Origin: Cyanobacteria bacterium M_surface_7_m2_037
GTDB taxonomy: Bacteria; Cyanobacteriota; Cyanobacteriia; PCC-6307; Cyanobiaceae
Length of the DNA: 40,698 nucleotides
Direction: 5' to 3'
NCBI GenBank assembly: GCA_016882585.1
Contig: VGPP01000002.1
Location: 1 to 40,698 of the forward strand
Under the pieces are notes generated by a model. It made no database searches. It was not told where the DNA came from and saw only the letters and a list, made by a program, of their open reading frames with translations. The position numbers were made by a program, and so were the translations under genes. Positions 1-25,632 of this stretch are shown here, in pieces (within the stretch, counting starts at the first letter, position 1; every line of letters begins with the position of its first letter).

Positions 1-157
1 TTCAAATGGAGCCTGCAAACGATCTGGTCAAAGGATCAGCAACGCCAGTGAGGCCGTGGATTGCTTTGGTATCAGGCGCCCTCATCGCTGGGTGTGCCAC
101 CACACCATCGGTTTGCCTTGATGGTGGTGTCAAGCGGCGGCCCAGGCACCGGCCGGG

Positions 158-283
158 ATGCGCAATGTTCGCAAGGGGCACCGGATCATCCGCGCCGACT
201 GGCTGGAGAAGACCAACAAAGAATCGGGTGTGCCTGATATCGGCATCCAGGCGGAGTGGGCGCCGGTGGTGGAACGGGAGTGA
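158..283 (+). CDS. Possible 41-aa ORF or gene remnant
   Basis: A short ORF from ATG with a plausible soluble composition (begins MRNVRKGHRI, includes IRADWLEKTN, ends VVERE). It is too short for the ORF track. The frame is open for about 40 bases upstream and is then closed by a TGA. No family is recognised. It could be the tail of a decayed gene or a chance ORF. No ribosome binding site is evident. Confidence 0.2.
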   Translation: MRNVRKGHRIIRADWLEKTNKESGVPDIGIQAEWAPVVERE

Positions 284-648
284 TTGGAACAGCGAGCAGG
301 CTGACAATCCACCACGTCGTCTGCACCATCGTGGTGTTGCAGCCTCACGACACGTGCTCGCAGGAAGTTTGACTCTTCTGATTGGGCTGAGTGATGTCCA
401 GATCCAAGGGGTCTGTGCTCGATGGAGCAACCGCCGCATCAACGGATCTGAGGCCTACGGGATGCTGCAGCTCAAGCAGTTGCCTTCTGCTCCGTACCCC
501 GGTGCAACGCAGGCTGACCGTATGGATGCCGCTGTGGCACAAGTGTGCAGATCCCGGCTACAGCTTCCGGGAACCTAGTTCGTTGCAGCAAGCGCACGCC
601 GTAAGCGATTAGTCGCCACGCGGCGGCGGGACTTGAGGATGTCACACG

Positions 649-702
649 GCGCCAGGGCTTCGCGAGCCGGTGTGGCTGCTGCGCAGACACCGGCCCTGGC
701 GC
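649..702. repeat. Large imperfect inverted repeat (hairpin)
   Basis: GCGCCAGG (649-656) and GCCGGTGT (666-673) pair with ACACCGGC (687-694) and CCTGGCGC (695-702). This gives a 16-bp stem with a 9-nt bulge on the left arm and a 13-nt loop. No T tract follows, so it is not a standard terminator. It lies in otherwise featureless DNA. Confidence 0.6.
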
Positions 703-957
703 TCGCGTGATCTCTTGTGTCCTTGCCGCCGCCGGGAAGTGTGGCGTTGGTTCGTGTCACCCAGCGCCCTCCCGCGGCTGCGGTGGCCGAGCTGTCTCAG
801 GCCTGCCTGATCCTCCTGGAAGCGTCTGTAGCGGCTGCGTTCTGGGCACTTGATCGGTGCTCGGCTTTCAGAAGAGTTGCCGCACTGCTGATGCCCTAGG
901 TGGCCAGATCTAGAGCCATAAAGATTCAAGAAGAGCGCCCTACCAGTCCCATCTCAG

Positions 958-988
958 TTGGCGCATAGTACGCCCGTACTGATACAAT
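958..988 (+). promoter_or_regulatory. Promoter with embedded LexA-type (SOS) operator
   Basis: AGTACGCCCGTACT at 967-980 is a perfect 6-2-6 inverted repeat. It matches the AGTAC-N4-GTACT pattern known for cyanobacterial LexA boxes. A good -10 hexamer TACAAT lies at 983-988 and a possible -35 TTGGCG at 958-963, so the operator sits between the two promoter elements where a repressor would block polymerase. The first gene starts at 1035 with AGGAG 7 nt upstream. The match is seen; LexA control is inferred. Confidence 0.65.
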
Positions 989-1034
989 GAAGGGGTGATC
1001 AAGGGATGGCCTCCGCTGTAGCAGGAGCCCTTGA

Positions 1035-1553
1035 ATGAACTCCTTCTGCGCTCTTTTTCTTTCCATGCTTTCACTCACTCAGGCCGCCGCGTTGGCACCG
1101 CCTGCTGCTTCCTTATTCAGCTCGCTGTTTCTCCCTGGCAGTGGCCAGCTGGTGATCGTGGCCGGTGGTGGCCGTGATCTCACCTGGCCTTCCGAGCTGA
1201 TCGCCACCCATCTCTTACGGGCCTCCAGTGGCCGCATCGTGCAGGCCCTGCTCCATGGCGCTGCCCGCGGCGCGGATCAAGCCATCACCTCAGCGGCCGA
1301 TCAGCTCGGCTGGCCCCAGATCCCCTACCCCGCTGCCTGGCGTGATCACGGCCGCGCCGCTGGCCCGATCCGCAATCGCCAGATGCTCGAGCGCTCGCTC
1401 GATCTGGTTGCCGCTCTCCCCCTGGGCGCGGCCCTGCTCGTGATCGCCTTTCCCGGTTCCCGCGGCACCGCCTCCCTGGTGGATCGGGCCCGCCGCCTCA
1501 GCCGGAGCTCGGCCATCCCCATCGAGGTGATCGAAATCGCGGCAGCGGCATAG
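1035..1553 (+). CDS. SLOG-superfamily protein, DUF2493/YspA-like
   Basis: 172 aa. A Rossmann-like SLOG fold is indicated by the nucleotide-binding start LVIVAGGGRD (about 39-48), then HGAARGADQA (74-83), the DUF2493 signature WRDHGRAAGPIRNRQML (102-118) and FPGSRGTASLV (139-149). Members of this DprA/LOG-related superfamily are thought to bind nucleotides or nucleotide-derived ligands and are common in phages and accessory regions. The exact role is unknown. The first 38 residues are hydrophobic and lie outside the domain, so the true start could be further in; however, ATG 1035 has AGGAG 7 nt upstream. It is the first gene after the LexA-type promoter and is followed by Gp157 and Rad52-family genes on the same strand. 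Confidence 0.8.
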   Translation: MNSFCALFLSMLSLTQAAALAPPAASLFSSLFLPGSGQLVIVAGGGRDLTWPSELIATHLLRASSGRIVQALLHGAARGADQAITSAADQLGWPQIPYPAAWRDHGRAAGPIRNRQMLERSLDLVAALPLGAALLVIAFPGSRGTASLVDRARRLSRSSAIPIEVIEIAAAA

Positions 1554-1630
1554 CCGCTTGCGATGGGGCTCTGCTCGCTCGCCGGAGCCCCGCTTTCCAC
1601 ACCACTCACCCTCCTCACACACGCATACCC

Positions 1631-2284
1631 ATGTCAGTTGCCATCCCCGTCACCACACCTCCCGCCGATACCCCGCAATTGCCCACCATCTGGGAGCTCG
1701 GCACCGAACTCCAGGCCGAAACCCACTGGATTGCTCCCCTCTCCGAGCGCCTCGACACAGAGGACGACGACGAACGCGCCCTCGCCATCGCCGATCTCGA
1801 GGAATCCCTGGCCCTCGAGGACAACAAACGTGAGGCCTTCATCCGCAAAGCCGATGCCACCTGCTGGGTGATCGAACGCCTGCGCGCAGAAGCCAGCTAC
1901 CACCTCACTCAATCCAAGCGCTTCTCAGCCCTCGCCAAACGAGAAGACAACCGCGCTGACGCCCTCGAATCCACCCTCATTCACCTCCTCTCCCGCCTCG
2001 ATCCATCCGCCACCGCCCACCACCTCACCGATCACCACCTCTCCTCCCGCACCACAGAAGCCATCGAGATCGATGACCCCGATCTCCTTCCCCCAGACCT
2101 CCTCACCACCCAAACCACCACCACCCCCAACAAAACCTCCATCAAGGCCAGCATCCGCGCCCTCATCTCATCCGCCACCTCAGGCCTCCCCAAACCAGAA
2201 GCCGCCCACCTCGCCTTCTCCCTCTCCGCCACCGCCGTCCCAGGCGCACGCCTAATCAAACCCCGCCACTGGTCCATCACCTGA
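1631..2284 (+). CDS. Siphovirus Gp157-family protein
   Basis: 217 aa, starting ATG 78 bases after the SLOG gene. The layout fits the Gp157 family of phage recombination regions: an acidic helical N-terminus (about 15-125, including EDDDERALAIADLEESLALE and a predicted coiled region), then an EIDDPDLLPPDLL segment (about 145-157) like the family's substrate-like IDD..IP motif, then a Lys-rich KTSIKASIRALI stretch and the conserved C-terminal VPGARLIKPRHWSI. Gp157 proteins usually sit beside single-strand annealing proteins in phage genomes, as here, but their biochemical role is not settled. The coding strand is unusually rich in C and poor in G from about 1950 to 2290. Confidence 0.8.
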   Translation: MSVAIPVTTPPADTPQLPTIWELGTELQAETHWIAPLSERLDTEDDDERALAIADLEESLALEDNKREAFIRKADATCWVIERLRAEASYHLTQSKRFSALAKREDNRADALESTLIHLLSRLDPSATAHHLTDHHLSSRTTEAIEIDDPDLLPPDLLTTQTTTTPNKTSIKASIRALISSATSGLPKPEAAHLAFSLSATAVPGARLIKPRHWSIT

Positions 2285-2425
2285 GGGGGCCAGGGGCCCC
2301 TTCGCAATGGGGTTTTGCAGTGGCGGGCCCAGGTGGGATCTCTTGCTCCGGCTCGGCACCGCAGCCCCCTAGTGGTTGCAGCCCCTCACTCCTTTCTCAC
2401 TCCACACACACTCGCTTTCTTCACC

Positions 2426-3310
2426 ATGGCCATCACATCGACAGCTACCAATCACGCCACTCCGGTGGTGCGCCGTAGCGCAACCAATCGACCGCCATCG
2501 ACGCTGCAGCTGCTCCGGGAATCCCTGAGCCAAGAAGCTGGTGCTCAACTATCGCCCTCACCTGCAACATCCCAATGCGATCCCCCCTTTGGGGGGTTGA
2601 GTAAGCGGCAGGTGGCGTTGCTTTCGGCTCCGCTCGATCGCGCCAACGTGCGCCAGCGCGAGCAGGGCCGCAGCCGCGTGAGCTATCTCGAGGGTTGGCA
2701 GGTGATCGCAGAAGCCAACCGCATCTTTGGCTTTGATGGCTGGGAGCGCTCCACCTTGATCAGCCGCTGCGTGGCCGAACACGAGCGCCCGATTGGCCGT
2801 GATCGCAAAAGCGGCTGGGGCGTGACCTACATCGCCCGCGTGCGCATCACCATCACCGCCGGAAACCGCACCCTCATCCGTGAGGGCTCCGGCGCCGGCC
2901 ATGGCATCGACGCCGACCTGGGCCTGGCCCATGAATCGGCCCTCAAGGAAGCCGAAACCGATGCCACCAAGCGGGCGCTGATGACCTTCGGGAATCCCTT
3001 TGGCCTGGCGCTCTACGACAAGCAGCAACGCCAGGTGAGCAGCGCAGCTGCGGCGCAGCCGGCCCCGGTGGCAACGACAGGCAAAGCGGTGCACGCCGAG
3101 GCCAAGGATGCTCCACTCCCACCCGCTGCCATCACCAGGCTGCAGGAACAGATCAAGGCCCTCGCCCCTGCTCGCCTCGAGGCCTTTGCCAAGGGCTTCC
3201 GCGCTGCCTTCCAGGTGCCTGATGCCATGCCATCCCTGGCGGGGTTGATCACCACCAGCCGCCACCAGCGCTGGATTGAGGGCTTCCTGGCCCAGAGCAC
3301 TGCGGGCTGA
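2426..3310 (+). CDS. Rad52-family single-strand annealing protein
   Basis: 294 aa. The start was moved from the track's 2315 to ATG 2426 because the upstream part has no domain content. Residues about 59-200 match the Rad52/Rad22 fold: SKRQVALLSAPLDRANVRQR, then YLEGWQVIAEANRIFGFDGW (88-107), a beta-rich middle with TYIARVRITI, GSGAGHG (155-160), and the helix ALKEAETDATKRALMTFGNPFG (172-193), which is the family hallmark. Such proteins form rings that anneal complementary single strands and mediate RecA-independent recombination. A flexible Ala/Pro linker (about 203-233) leads to a helical C-terminus of about 60 residues, possibly a partner-binding domain. It is the last gene of the putative SOS module and ends convergently with the gene at 3366-3659. 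Family call is firm; function is by homology. Confidence 0.85.
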   Translation: MAITSTATNHATPVVRRSATNRPPSTLQLLRESLSQEAGAQLSPSPATSQCDPPFGGLSKRQVALLSAPLDRANVRQREQGRSRVSYLEGWQVIAEANRIFGFDGWERSTLISRCVAEHERPIGRDRKSGWGVTYIARVRITITAGNRTLIREGSGAGHGIDADLGLAHESALKEAETDATKRALMTFGNPFGLALYDKQQRQVSSAAAAQPAPVATTGKAVHAEAKDAPLPPAAITRLQEQIKALAPARLEAFAKGFRAAFQVPDAMPSLAGLITTSRHQRWIEGFLAQSTAG

Positions 3311-3365: not shown

Positions 3366-3659
3366 TCACCTGAGCCCTGCGGCTGCAGCAGCCTGATGAG
3401 CGGCCACCTCAGCCTCCTGATCGGCTTCGATGGCCTGATCAATGGCCTCCACCCGCTCGAGGAACCCAGCCATCGCTGGCAGCAACTCCTCCTCGAGCAG
3501 GGTGATCTCCTCCTCCCCATAAGGGTGATCAACCCAGGGCCTCGGGATCAACAGACCTCTTGCGGTGTGTGTGGCCAGGAGCATCTCCACGGCTCGATAG
3601 CAGGACTCCACCAGGGCAACGGGATCTTCTGAACCACCGATGAACTCAGGGCTGAGCAT
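3366..3659 (-). CDS. Small acidic hypothetical protein, 97 aa
   Basis: Starts at ATG 3659 (MLSPEFIGGSEDPVALVESC) rather than the longer track start at 3779, whose extra residues come from the repeat region. The product is acidic and helical (EEEITLLEEELLPAMAGFLE, then QAIEADQEAEVAAHQ) with no membrane segment or signal peptide. It has no recognised family. Reality is supported by an open frame with balanced composition and a strong intrinsic terminator directly after its stop. It is convergent to the Rad52-family gene and lies just outside repeat copy A, so it may belong to the phage-like accessory region. Confidence 0.55.
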   Translation of the reverse strand: MLSPEFIGGSEDPVALVESCYRAVEMLLATHTARGLLIPRPWVDHPYGEEEITLLEEELLPAMAGFLERVEAIDQAIEADQEAEVAAHQAAAAAGLR

Positions 3660-3742: not shown

Positions 3743-3890
3743 GCGGTGAGCACCGGCACCGCCGGGGCGATCGCGCCACACCAACCAGTCAGCTCGCCTC
3801 GCGTCAGCCCTTGATCAGGGGCGATCCTGAGGTGCCCGGCGCGGCGCTTCTTGCGGTGCGTCCTGAGCCGGTGGGGTGCATCTTGCGGGG
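3743..3890. repeat. Direct repeat copy A, about 148 bp
   Basis: By eye this stretch aligns with 12699-12845 in the same orientation, with about eight mismatches and two single-base gaps. It includes a perfectly shared run of more than 30 bases around CGCGTCAGCCCTTGATCAGG. The gaps shift any reading frame between copies, so it is not a conserved coding sequence. This copy contains a HIP1 palindrome (3767-3774). The two copies bracket the guanidine island. Confidence 0.85.
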
Positions 3891-3988
3891 TGCTCAATCT
3901 GTTCAGAAGCACTTGTGACTTGGTATTGGTTGTAACAAGTCTGGTCGGTGGCGATCGATACGTTGAAAAAGCTCATTGCAGGAAGCTC

Positions 3989-4194: not shown

Positions 4195-4300
4195 GAAGCG
4201 GGAGTGATACCTAGGGTTCCGGCTCATCCGAGTGCTGGTCCGAGAGGTATCGGTCGGTACGCCGACTGCACGGAGGGACAAAAGCCCGGGAGACCGCTTC
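4195..4300 (+). promoter_or_regulatory. Guanidine-I (ykkC) riboswitch
   Basis: The closing stem P1 is GAAGCGG (4195-4201) with CCGCTTC (4294-4300). Between them are the conserved ykkC-class blocks CTAGGGTTCCGG, GGTCCGAGAG and, near the 3' side, ACGGAGGGACAAAAGCCCGG followed by GAGA. This class senses free guanidine and turns on downstream genes. It ends 19 bases before the ATG of the hydrolase gene. No intrinsic terminator is obvious, so control may act on translation or early elongation. It strongly supports reading the downstream genes as guanidine genes. Confidence 0.93.
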
Positions 4301-4319
4301 TCTCCACTTCACTCTTGCC

Positions 4320-5510
4320 ATGACATCTGACTCAGGTGCTGCGGGCGCCTTTGACCGTTCGCAGTCAACAGAGGGGCAGCGCGCTCTCGAAAAGGAACGC
4401 TCCCTCCCCCTCACTGGTTGGCAACAAGAGGTCGACCAAGCCCATCGCTTCGGCTTGGAAGCTGCCGACAGCATTGTTGACAGGAACATCTCTACGTTCT
4501 CCAGAGGCGAGTTGCCCCACTTCGCGGGCATCAACACCTTCATGAAGGCGCCCTACATCGAAGATGTGAATCGCGTCGGCGAATTTGACGTCGCCATCGT
4601 TGGTGTGCCCCATGACAGCGGCACTACCTACCGGCCAGGAACCCGTTTTGGCCCGCAGGGGATTCGTCGGATTTCAGCGCTGTACACACCGTACAACTAC
4701 GAGATGGGTGTAGATCTGCGGGAACAGATCACCCTCTGTGATGTGGGCGATATTTTCACGATTCCAGCGAATAACGAGAAGAGCTTCGATCAGATTTCGA
4801 AGGGCATTGCCCACGTGTTTGCGAGCGGCGCCTTCCCGATCATCCTCGGCGGCGATCACTCGATCGGATTTCCCACGGTCCGTGGCGTCTGCCGCCATCT
4901 GGGCGACAAGAAGGTGGGCATCATCCACTTCGACCGCCATGTCGACACCCAGGAGATCGACCTCGACGAGCGCATGCACACCTGTCCGTGGTTCCACGCC
5001 ACGAACATGGCCAATGCGCCGGCTAAGAACCTGGTGCAGCTCGGCATCGGCGGCTGGCAGGTTCCCCGTGAGGGCGTGAAGGTCTGCCGTGAGCGCGGCA
5101 CCAATGTGCTCACGGTGACTGACATCACCGAAATGGGCCTCGAGGCCGCTGCGCAATTTGCGATTGAGCGCGCCACCGATGGCACCGATTGCGTTTACAT
5201 CTCCTTTGACATCGATTGCATCGATGCTGGATTTGTACCAGGCACCGGATGGCCTGAGCCGGGTGGTTTGCTGCCCCGTGAAGCGCTGAAGCTTCTCGAG
5301 TTGATTGTGCGCAATGTGCCGGTCTGTGGTCTTGAAATTGTGGAGGTTTCACCGCCCTACGACATCAGTGACATGACCTCACTGATGGCCACTCGGGTGA
5401 TCTGCGACACCATGGCCCACCTGGTGGTGAGCGGTCAGCTGCCTCGCAAGGAAAAGCCCAGCTGGATCAGCGATGTCTGCAACATGAATGTGGATCAGAA
5501 GTGGAGATAG
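4320..5510 (+). CDS. gdmH: Nickel-dependent guanidine hydrolase
   Basis: 396 aa, ureohydrolase (arginase/agmatinase) fold. Known members of this subfamily (Synechocystis Sll1077) hydrolyse guanidine to urea and ammonia using nickel. Metal-site motifs are GGDH (177-180), DRHVD (205-209) and SFDIDCID (295-302), with Glu in VEVSPPYD near 342. DRHVD in place of the usual DAHxD, and an N-terminal extension of about 85 residues including LPLTGWQQEV and TFSRGELPHFAGINTF, fit the guanidine hydrolase branch rather than agmatinase. It is directly behind a guanidine-I riboswitch and followed by dedicated nickel chaperone genes. An annotation pipeline would probably call it agmatinase; context argues against that. 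Confidence 0.92.
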   Translation: MTSDSGAAGAFDRSQSTEGQRALEKERSLPLTGWQQEVDQAHRFGLEAADSIVDRNISTFSRGELPHFAGINTFMKAPYIEDVNRVGEFDVAIVGVPHDSGTTYRPGTRFGPQGIRRISALYTPYNYEMGVDLREQITLCDVGDIFTIPANNEKSFDQISKGIAHVFASGAFPIILGGDHSIGFPTVRGVCRHLGDKKVGIIHFDRHVDTQEIDLDERMHTCPWFHATNMANAPAKNLVQLGIGGWQVPREGVKVCRERGTNVLTVTDITEMGLEAAAQFAIERATDGTDCVYISFDIDCIDAGFVPGTGWPEPGGLLPREALKLLELIVRNVPVCGLEIVEVSPPYDISDMTSLMATRVICDTMAHLVVSGQLPRKEKPSWISDVCNMNVDQKWR

Positions 5511-5514
5511 TCCC

Positions 5515-5895
5515 ATGCATGAAGTCGACATGACGAAATGCCTGGTGCTCTCCATGAATGAGTGGCGCCAACAGCATGAGCCATCTTTGCCAGTGGTGTC
5601 TCAGGTGCATCTGCAAGTGGGTGATTTCACCTGTGTGGAGCCCGAGCAGCTGGTGCACACCTGGCGCATCGCCATCCAGAACAGCTGGTTGGCCGGCGCT
5701 GAGCTCAAGATCGAGCAAATCCCACTCGTTGCCCGCTGCGTGTGCTGCAACAGCACCTATTCGCCCAGCGCTGATCAGGCCTACCAATCGCCCTGTTGCA
5801 GTCATCCCATGGAAGACATTGTGAGTGGACGTGAGCTGCGGATTCGCTCTGTTGACTACAGCCTCAACCCTGAACTTGCCCCCTTGTCAGCCTGA
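5515..5895 (+). CDS. ghaA: HypA-like nickel chaperone for guanidine hydrolase
   Basis: 126 aa starting at ATG 5515 (MHEVDMTK), 4 bases after gdmH. The Met-His-Glu start is the nickel site of HypA proteins. The zinc site reads CVCC (75-78) and CCSH (94-97), so the last ligand of the second CxxC is His rather than Cys. In HypA the zinc domain links nickel binding to partner recognition. There are no hydrogenase genes in the window; the operon position with gdmH and the HypB-like gene matches the accessory pair described for guanidine hydrolase. It probably delivers nickel together with the next gene product. Confidence 0.88.
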
Positions 5896-5897
5896 TC

Positions 5898-6611
5898 ATG
5901 CACATGCCTCTGGAAGACACACTCGGTCTGAATCTGCTGGCAGCCAATCAGCACCAGGCAGAGCACAACCGTGAGCATTTCGATGCCTGGGATCTGCTCT
6001 GCCTCAACGTGATGAGCAGCCCGGGTGCAGGCAAAACATCACTGCTCGAGCGCTCACTCGCCGCGCTGGCCACCGACCACTCCATGGCGGTGCTTGAAGG
6101 CGACATGACCACCCAGTTGGATGCCGATCGCCTCGAGGCTGTGGGTGTGCCAGTGGTTCCCATCACCACCGGCCGCGCCTGTCACCTCGACGCATCGATG
6201 GTGAGCGGTGGTGTGAAGCTGCTACGCCAACGGCTGGATCCGGCCGCCCTCGATCTGTTGTGGGTGGAGAACGTGGGCAACCTGGTGTGCCCAGCGGAAT
6301 TTGAGGTGGGCGAGCACCGCAAGGTAGCGCTGCTGAGCGTCACTGAGGGTGATGACAAACCGCTCAAATATCCGGTGATGTTCCGGGAAGCCGATTGCGT
6401 CTTGATCACCAAGACCGATCTCCTCCCTTATTTGCCTGTGGACATCGAGCGCATTGAGGCTCACATCCATCAGGTGAATCCGCGTTGCACCGTGTTGCGG
6501 GTGTCGGCCACCAGTGGTGAGGGCCTGGACGAGTGGCATCGCTGGGTTCACCAACAGCTGGCTGATCAGCGCCAGAGCCGGGCGGCCGCTCCTGCCCTCG
6601 TGACCGTATGA
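5898..6611 (+). CDS. ghaB: HypB-like nickel-insertion GTPase for guanidine hydrolase
   Basis: 237 aa, SIMIBI-class GTPase. P-loop SSPGAGKTS (about 41-49), the HypB-type switch region [31 protein letters not shown] with the conserved Cys at the nickel/dimer site, and the guanine-specificity motif TKTDLLP. The N-terminus lacks the long His-rich tail of some HypB proteins, though MHMPLED carries a His. Two bases separate it from ghaA, and its stop overlaps the next start by 4 bases (ATGA), so translation is likely coupled. Expected role: GTP-driven nickel loading of GdmH. Confidence 0.9.
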
Positions 6612-7960
6612 ACGCCCCTCAGAACCTGGAAGCCCTGCGGGCTGAGCTTGCAGACAAGGGCGTGCGCTACGCCCTGGCGAGCTTCGTGGATCTGCATGGG
6701 GTCTGCAAGGCCAAGGCCGTGCCGATCGATCACCTCCATGCGATGGCATCCGGTTCCGAGCTGTTCACTGGCGCAGCTCTGGATGGGGTCCCCCAGGACG
6801 TCAGCGATGACGAGGTGGCTGCGATTCCCGATCTGAGCTCGGCTGTGGTGCTGCCCTGGCGGCCCGACACCGTCTGGTTTGCCAGCAATCTCCACCTAGG
6901 CAGCGACCCGTTTGAGGCCTGTAGTCGCAACATCCTCAGTCGGGTGCGAGACCAGGCGGCAGCCATGGGCTTGCGCTTCAACCTCGGGGTGGAAACGGAG
7001 TTTTTCGTGCTGCGGCGAGCAACCGATGGCCAGCTCGTTCCCGCCAGTGCCAACGACACCCTCGATAAACCCTGCTACGACCTTCGCGGTCTGCTCGACA
7101 ACCTCGATTGGCTCGGAGAGCTCGTGCAGGCCATGAATGGTCTGGGTTGGGGGGTTTATTCGTTTGATCACGAAGATGGCAATGGTCAGTTTGAAACCGA
7201 CTTCGGCTACGCCGACTGTCTGACCACGGCGGATCGCGTCACCTTCTTCCGGTTGATGGCACGGGAGATCACGCGCAAGCACGGCCTGATCGCCAGCTTC
7301 ATGCCAAAGCCCTTCGCTGATCGCACGGGCAGCGGCGCTCACTTCAATATGTCGCTGGCCGACTCACAGCAGGGGCACAACCTGTTTGCTCCGGCTGATG
7401 GCAGCGCGGCCTGGGTGAGCGAGATGGGCCTGCAGTTCATGGCCGGGATCCTCCGTCATGCACCGGCGATCTGCGCGGTGATGGCTCCAACGGTGAACAG
7501 CTACAAGCGCTTAGTGGTGCAAGGAAGCATGAGCGGCTTCACCTGGGCGCCGGTCTTTGTTTGCTATGGCAATAACAACCGCACCAACATGTTGCGCATT
7601 CCCGGAGCTGGCAGCCGGGTGGAATGTCGCGCTGCCGATAGCTCCTGCAATCCCTATCTGGCGGCAGCCATGTTGCTTGCCGCTGGTCTTGAAGGAATCC
7701 GGGAGGGCCTGGATCCCGGGCCCCCCAACCTTGTGAATGCCTATCGCCTCACCCCAGAGGAACGGGCTGCCAGGGGGCTCACCACCCTGCCTCGCACCCT
7801 GGGGGAGGCGATTGAGGCGTTTGCTGCCGATCCCCTCTCCCGAGAGGTGTTCGGCGATGCCATGGCCGAGGCCTACACCGCCTTCAAGCGCGATGAATGG
7901 AACAGCTTCCACGGCGCCATCTCCGACTGGGAGAGGGATCGCTATCTGGAGCTGTTCTGA
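6608..7960 (+). CDS. glnT: Type III (GlnT-like) glutamine synthetase family ligase
   Basis: 450 aa with both glutamine synthetase domains: N-terminal beta-grasp (about 15-100) and a C-terminal catalytic domain with GVETEF (127-132, metal Glu residues), [31 protein letters not shown] and [19 protein letters not shown]. All main catalytic motifs look intact. This branch (GlnT, near gamma-glutamylmethylamide synthetases) joins glutamate to ammonia or to small amines. Its start overlaps ghaB. In a guanidine operon it could capture released ammonia, or glutamylate an amine made from a substituted guanidine. The first is simpler; the second would explain why a dedicated non-GlnA enzyme is kept. The true acceptor is unknown. 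Confidence 0.85.
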
Positions 7961-12684: not shown

Positions 12685-12698
12685 TGGTGACAAGCTCC

Positions 12699-12845
12699 GC
12701 GGTGAGCACCGGCAGCGCCGGAGCGATCTCGCCACGTCAACCAGTCACTCGCCTCGCGTCAGCCCTTGATCAGGGGCGATCCTGGAGGTGCCCGGCGCGG
12801 CGCTTCTGGTGGTGCGTCCTGAGCCGGTGGGGTGCATCTGGCGGA
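12699..12845. repeat. Direct repeat copy B, about 147 bp
   Basis: Second copy of the repeat at 3743-3890, same orientation, roughly 93 percent identical by eye. Shared blocks include CGGTGAGCACCGG, CGCGTCAGCCCTTGATCAGG and CGTCCTGAGCCGGTGGGGTG. No reading frame is preserved between copies. It marks the right edge of the guanidine island. Confidence 0.85.
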
Positions 12846-12927
12846 CTGCAGAACCCTGCCGATGGAGCTAGCGGTCAATGCAGCGAAGCCAGTGATCCAT
12901 GCCGACCAGCGGGCTCTCCGCGATCTC

Positions 12928-25426: not shown

Positions 25427-25467
25427 GTCTTGGCCTGGTCCGCGCCAGGGGTGAGGGAGCAACAACC

Positions 25468-25596
25468 GGCGGGCGTTCTGACTGCGAACGCGGCCTCAGC
25501 CCCGTTCGATCACAGCTGCGGGACAGCGCCGGATTCGCACCGGACTTTCCCCGTTTCCTCTTCGGGCTGATCCCCCGAAGAACCGATCCCATCAAT
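25468..25596 (-). promoter_or_regulatory. Cobalamin (B12) riboswitch
   Basis: On the minus strand the core reads GGAAACGGGGAAAGTCCGGT, then GCGAATCCGGCGCTGTCCCG and CAGCTGTGA, which is the conserved B12-box region. The flanking sequence with CGAAGAGG and the 3' end with GTCAGAACGCC fit the class. It lies about 40 bases before the HupE-type gene start. Binding of cobalamin is expected to switch the operon off. Confidence 0.92.
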
Positions 25597-25632
25597 GTAG
25601 TGGGTCTGGGCGATCCGGCTGCTCAGGCCAGT

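Follow-up and report, generated by a model that had tools for sequence, protein, structure and literature searches.

A predicted SOS-controlled SLOG-Gp157-Rad52 operon of Cyanobiaceae, carried by tRNA-integrated prophages and, in one lineage, apart from them

Three consecutive genes of a cyanobacterial contig, encoding a SLOG protein, a Gp157-family protein and a Rad52-family protein, probably form an operon under SOS (LexA) control that encodes a single-strand annealing system of phage type (SLOG, Gp157, Rad52/Sak). As judged from sequence comparison, this module mostly goes, in Cyanobiaceae, with prophage islands integrated at tRNA genes, where it belongs to the accessory, att-proximal end on the side away from the integrase. 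The copy studied here would belong to a lineage, termed A, that sits in the chromosome without these prophages. The window, i.e., the whole stretch of DNA analyzed (40,698 nucleotides), is one entire contig (C2) of a genome that is 69% complete in 209 contigs. In freshwater picocyanobacteria, an abundant group, the module would link DNA-damage signalling with annealing recombination of phage type. As a kind, phage SSAP modules under SOS control are known already; the gene set, its placement, its multiplicity and an upstream hairpin are new, and searches of an open-access library found no paper describing the trio.

Table 1. Features of the module and its flanks
Feature	Position	Strand	Basis
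3' end of small host gene (FKWSLQTIWSKDQQRQ*), left flank of module	1..51	+	Synteny
Long imperfect hairpin (R1) upstream of promoter, RNA or DNA element	606..753	+	Covariance, full-length matches
Predicted LexA operator AGTACGCCCGTACT	967..980	.	recA-operator matrix score 17.5 (maximum 19.2)
Extended -10 element TGATACAAT, overlapping operator	980..988	+	GTACTGNTANAAT-type element in 52/66 module copies
SLOG (YAcAr/YspA) protein, 162 aa	1065..1553	+	PF10686, E 2e-8, 34.2 bits (cut-off 28.2)
Sipho_Gp157 family protein, 217 aa	1631..2284	+	PF05565, E 4e-13, 50.3 bits (cut-off 28.6)
Rad52-family single-strand annealing protein, 294 aa	2426..3310	+	PF04098, E 5e-40, 137 bits (cut-off 20.3)
Conserved small ORF, flank outside operon	3366..3659	-	Found downstream of lineage A modules; bounds variable spot
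Lineage B operator site AGTGCGTTTGTACT			

Module proteins and the predicted LexA operator

The first-pass annotation named the three genes as SLOG, Gp157 and Rad52-family, and these names stand: all three are intact, and each product scores above its curated Pfam cut-off. The SLOG reading frame opens at 1035; as the upstream ATG is missing in most relatives, whose proteins start with an internal MLSL or MCSL, the start is probably at 1065. The modelled protein (pLDDT 84) has the type-II LOG structure 5wq3 as its nearest fold (E 4e-4), with ShosA (8zva, E 0.012) also among the matches, and a PF10686 match above cut-off together with the LOG fold match places it in the SLOG/LOG fold. This fold is shared with DprA and ShosA; unlike them, the module protein is short, single-domain and of the YAcAr family, and its ssDNA binding is only putative. 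At the position of the catalytic Glu in the LOG motif PGGxGTxxE, all 11 aligned SLOG copies have Leu, which makes catalysis of the LOG cytokinin phosphoribohydrolase type unlikely. A LOG-like fold without this Glu makes a binding role likelier, and the protein may bind a nucleotide or ssDNA rather than act as a LOG enzyme.

The Gp157 protein matches phrog_253, "Mu Gam-like end protection," in PHROGs (E 5e-14). Its model, a long helix with a small alpha/beta domain, is of low confidence (pLDDT 70), and a fold search of the PDB with this model returned no match, so that Gam as an identity found no structural support. The protein might conceivably be a partner of the Rad52-like protein, perhaps as a modulator of DNA ends or of a nuclease. 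For the latter protein, the profile matches RAD52 structures, with 8g3g as the best (E 1e-17), and by family membership the annealing of complementary single strands would be the best-founded part of the mechanism. Its C-terminal domain is conserved. A gene from a prophage replication cluster (L302 7385-8110; G018:C38 47385-48110) encodes a C-terminal domain common with the module Rad52 (33% over 207-290), which hints at a shared docking domain.

The operator matrix was built only from recA operators, those of 10 congeneric genomes, in all of which [CG]GTAC[AG]CCTGTACT lies upstream of recA. With this matrix, lineage A module promoters score 17.5 to 18.3, apart from one copy at 13.8; elsewhere, umuD-type genes reach up to 15.5 and lexA-type genes 9.4. 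Of 11 lineage A loci, 9 share AGTACGCCCGTACT exactly, and the other two differ from it by a single base. The main lineage B promoters keep AGTGCNNNNGTACT and score mostly 9 to 12.7, their weaker operators having an AGTGC half-site. GTACTGNTANAAT is an operator half-site that runs into the extended -10 element, and the predicted operator lies over the promoter as at recA. As the operator is of the recA type and is kept across lineages, in almost all copies, the comparison supports SOS (LexA) control of the operon, and the LexA-like promoter of the first-pass annotation is borne out as a prediction. LexA would occupy the operator overlapping the -10 element, from which DNA damage would presumably free it. 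A genome-wide count of the palindrome AGTACNNNNGTACT was discarded as evidence for SOS control, with about three sites per genome, near chance and mostly away from SOS genes.

The published cyanobacterial LexA box is RGTACNNNDGTWCB (PMC3091678), with which AGTACGCCCGTACT agrees save at one position. Operator type is thus a likeness to the LexA regulon of cyanobacteria, as is the lexA box GGTACAAATGTATT, identical to that given there for Prochlorococcus MED4. The passages of PMC3091678 that were consulted name recA, umuD and lexA as targets and do not mention an SSAP operon of the module kind.

Recurrence and placement in prophage islands

The Rad52 protein occurs in 14 of 25 genomes of the same genus, with many copies in several, and the order SLOG-Gp157-Rad52 was found in 16 of the 17 loci read first, the exception being cut by a contig end. 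A Rad52 profile scan of public genomes gave 184 relatives. Among the best 79 loci, 70 hold the full trio, 8 of the 9 others are cut by a contig end, and nearly all come from Cyanobium, Vulcanococcus and freshwater Synechococcus. The Gp157 profile finds matches in 14 of 59 genera of Cyanobiaceae: 73 of 400 genomes have the family, as do 58 of the 251 good ones, and a genome holds up to about seven module copies. A survey of other cyanobacteria, as had been proposed, thus shows that dozens of Cyanobiaceae genomes carry the three-gene set with its order unchanged. Median dN/dS values for the three genes among the closest eight lineage A copies are 0.20, 0.16 and 0.20; by this measure, the module is under purifying selection. 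One contig from a MAG labelled Hyphomonadaceae (L184) encodes a partial Rad52, 81% identical, and is probably a mis-binned cyanobacterial contig.

Lineages A and B are split by Gp157 profile score at 326 bits, a threshold chosen after seeing the data. Two strains that can be cultured, Vulcanococcus limneticus LL and Synechococcus sp. HJ21-Hayes, have copies of both lineages. The integrase family near modules is too divergent for PF00589, whose match is sub-threshold, and therefore needed a dedicated profile (A4, our own), with tyrosine-recombinase residues read by eye. This integrase lies within 3 kb of the module in 26 of 104 lineage B copies, and a terminase of the type found in genome G009 lies within 80 kb in 31 of the 104. 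Terminases within 100 kb of a lineage B module are on the opposite strand every time and mostly downstream.

Three att-bounded islands of 49 to 61 kb (G009, G018:C38 and G123) hold the module between att repeats together with phage structural genes, the module lying a short way in from the end that does not carry the integrase. In G009, a 56,093-bp unit occurs twice in tandem with 100% identity, the copies overlapping by a 46-bp att sequence that is the 3' end of tRNA-Gly(CCC); since G009 was assembled from a metagenome, an excised form that was co-assembled could also account for the tandem. By Pfam, the unit encodes a terminase (PF17289), a DUF4055 portal-like protein, a GP7 major capsid protein, a primase and a VRR-NUC protein; the integrase occupies one end, and the module lies 0.8 kb in from the opposite end. 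Single-copy islands occupy the same tRNA-Gly(CCC) in G123, a one-contig genome (48.8 kb), and in G018:C38 (60.7 kb). At another locus (L186), a portal homologue with 52% identity to that of G009 directly follows rad52. The first-pass statement that no phage structural genes are around is accordingly true within the window and fails for sister copies, which sit in prophages that encode a terminase, a portal-like protein and a capsid protein. In such prophages, the annealing system would serve recombination at induction. A search with the portal family PF04860, which gave no match in 11 genomes, had misleadingly suggested that there are no prophages; the portal here is of the DUF4055 type.

The tRNA-Gly prophage family is large (L295-L301, at G009:C18 84274-196505; L302-L305; L306-L308). 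Its terminase is 37% identical to that of S-CBS2 and is found in 42 of 60 module genomes, with up to 18 matches in one. The family is apparently undescribed so far. A widespread prophage family in freshwater picocyanobacteria contrasts with the view of one paper that lysogeny is apparently rare in this group, no inducible prophage being reported there from Synechococcus or Prochlorococcus isolates (PMC6157547).

Among cyanophages, where a search for the trio had also been suggested, the only Gp157 match in the phage collection (32%) is from S-LBS1, an integrase-bearing freshwater cyanosiphovirus of 34.6 kb with a pfam00589 integrase and a siphovirus-gp157 gene (PMC6157547). Resemblance to this phage stops at Gp157, with neither a Rad52 match nor the trio detected in it. 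In phages, rad52/22 genes stand in a context of SSAP and SSB followed by replication genes (PMC8093625). Like these Rad52/Sak modules of temperate phages, the operon has a Rad52/22-family SSAP with small partner genes; unlike them, it is a SLOG-Gp157-Rad52 set predicted to be under LexA that lies either at the att-proximal end of a prophage or independently in the host chromosome.

Lineage A and the window copy

None of the 18 lineage A copies is near an integrase (3 kb) or terminase (80 kb), an absence which, many contigs being short, is shown for only about eight copies on long contigs. The G009-type terminase is absent from 9 of 10 lineage-A-only genomes, including that of the window, which also lacks a match to integrase profile A4. 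Within the window, no integrase, att repeats or structural genes are seen beside the module, and no adjoining tRNA was found. The left edge coincides with the contig end, beyond which phage structural genes might have been expected to adjoin if the module were a simple prophage remnant. By synteny with four relatives, the first bases appear instead to be the end of a small host gene, which in G018:C20, G009:C24, G019 and G001 ends about 1 to 2 kb ahead of the lineage A module; window positions 1-607 are 88% identical to the first two of these. The window copy, its left flank syntenic with host genes, does not have the setting of a prophage gene. On the right, the order module, small ORF, guanidine hydrolase recurs in G208.

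The Rad52 tree unites the 11 rows of the lineage A core in one clade (97/97), nested in a clade with prophage and viral-contig copies (99/97); the divergent A copies of G004 and G019/G001 have no firm placement in the A clade. Taken together, the window copy looks like a phage-type operon kept by the host. The description of the genes as a domesticated, stand-alone set suits lineage A only, because paralogous copies sit inside tRNA-integrated prophages. The window copy could also be a decaying prophage remnant, the phage having left or eroded and the operon being a relic without host function. Sister copies borne by prophages are in line with this, as is a second lineage A Rad52 copy of the window genome, on C119 (L003 2929-3399), which is truncated with an eroded N-terminus. 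We nevertheless hold a remnant to be unlikely: the three genes are intact, lineage A has a dN/dS of about 0.2, both operator and hairpin are preserved, and the flanking order is common to several genomes of two genera. The truncated copy adjoins a DUF433/DUF5615-like pair and a ZnuA-like gene.

For an operon kept by the host, SOS-induced annealing recombination is the most likely role, and in lineage A it would amount to damage-induced annealing repair and exchange of neighboring cassettes. RecA independence and a sensor or effector role of SLOG, both suggested in the first-pass annotation, are conjectural. Should lineage A prove to serve the host, it would clearly exemplify how a phage recombination operon is taken over under the host SOS switch, and it would be a possible recombineering tool for cyanobacteria.

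Neighboring cassettes, the upstream hairpin and the right flank

The spot behind rad52 is variable. In 8 of 11 lineage A loci, a toxin-antitoxin (TA) pair stands right behind rad52, ahead of the conserved small ORF where there is one; overall, by our own reading, about 21 of 88 loci have such a pair as the next gene. These pairs, on the same strand, are DUF433/DUF5615, BrnT with an antitoxin, or nucleotidyltransferase/HEPN. Such a spot would be expected if the module served genomic-island mobility, homologous exchange at the att-proximal end swapping or stacking cassettes behind rad52 and whole prophages. The frequent adjacency of the integrase and the identical 56-kb prophages of G009 point the same way, although islands collect TA genes anyway and the tandem may be an assembly of the excised form. 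We see this as a minor possibility. In SXT/R391 ICEs, mobile elements that respond to SOS, bet-exo supplies an annealing recombinase of phage type and raises recombination, a parallel for annealing-driven exchange of islands. Unlike these conjugative elements with Bet and an exonuclease, the module operon has no exonuclease, and no conjugation genes are seen.

Many module loci also hold TA pairs, Abi_2 and DUF499/HmaC defense genes, and SLOG families are part of NAD+/ADPr conflict systems (PMC9503650). The operon might on these grounds act in anti-phage defense or superinfection control, SLOG sensing or processing a nucleotide signal and Gp157/Rad52 acting on the DNA ends of invading phage. 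This seems distinctly improbable to us, as PADLOC models match none of the three proteins up to E 0.01, LexA control and SSAP homology indicate DNA recombination, and prophages themselves carry the operon. At L049 13188-16289 and in relatives, a DUF499 ATPase resembling HmaC forms with its neighbors a defense cluster inside a prophage island.

Upstream of the promoter, the long imperfect hairpin has folding z scores of -3.5 and -4.0 on the two strands. Across 22 sequences, 98.5% of the cells at its 30 pairs are standard, against 35 to 49% in slid controls, and both-side changes occupy 34 cells, against 10.2 in shuffles (0/500). Full-length covariance matches precede the modules of lineage A and of deep-branching copies, two of the matches being displaced by about 4 kb; the hairpin is not recognized in the main lineage B and has no match in Rfam. 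As its inner part recurs elsewhere in module loci as a weaker repeat, only the full-length hairpin is module-linked, and with few G-U pairs, a DNA hairpin fits as well as RNA. At the speculative end, hairpin, operator and the three proteins would be one SOS-triggered recombination system, the hairpin being a structured RNA or the single-strand DNA substrate of SLOG/Gp157/Rad52, that drives exchange of phage ends and TA cassettes, first in prophages and then, host-owned, in lineage A; we rate this a long shot.

A repeat of about 152 bp (3745-3896 and 12698-12849), about 90% identical to copies behind modules of relatives, is a dispersed element. Misassembly at this repeat on the right side was considered and set aside, G208 having the same gene order. 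Further right, a guanidine-I riboswitch (4200-4294) precedes an agmatinase-family gene, likely a guanidine hydrolase, and opens a guanidine-use cluster (4200-7960, on to about 11585) in which HypA, HypB and a type III glutamine synthetase-like gene follow and which also holds an ABC transporter and a Rieske-type oxygenase. A cobalamin riboswitch lies at 25451-25602 on the minus strand.
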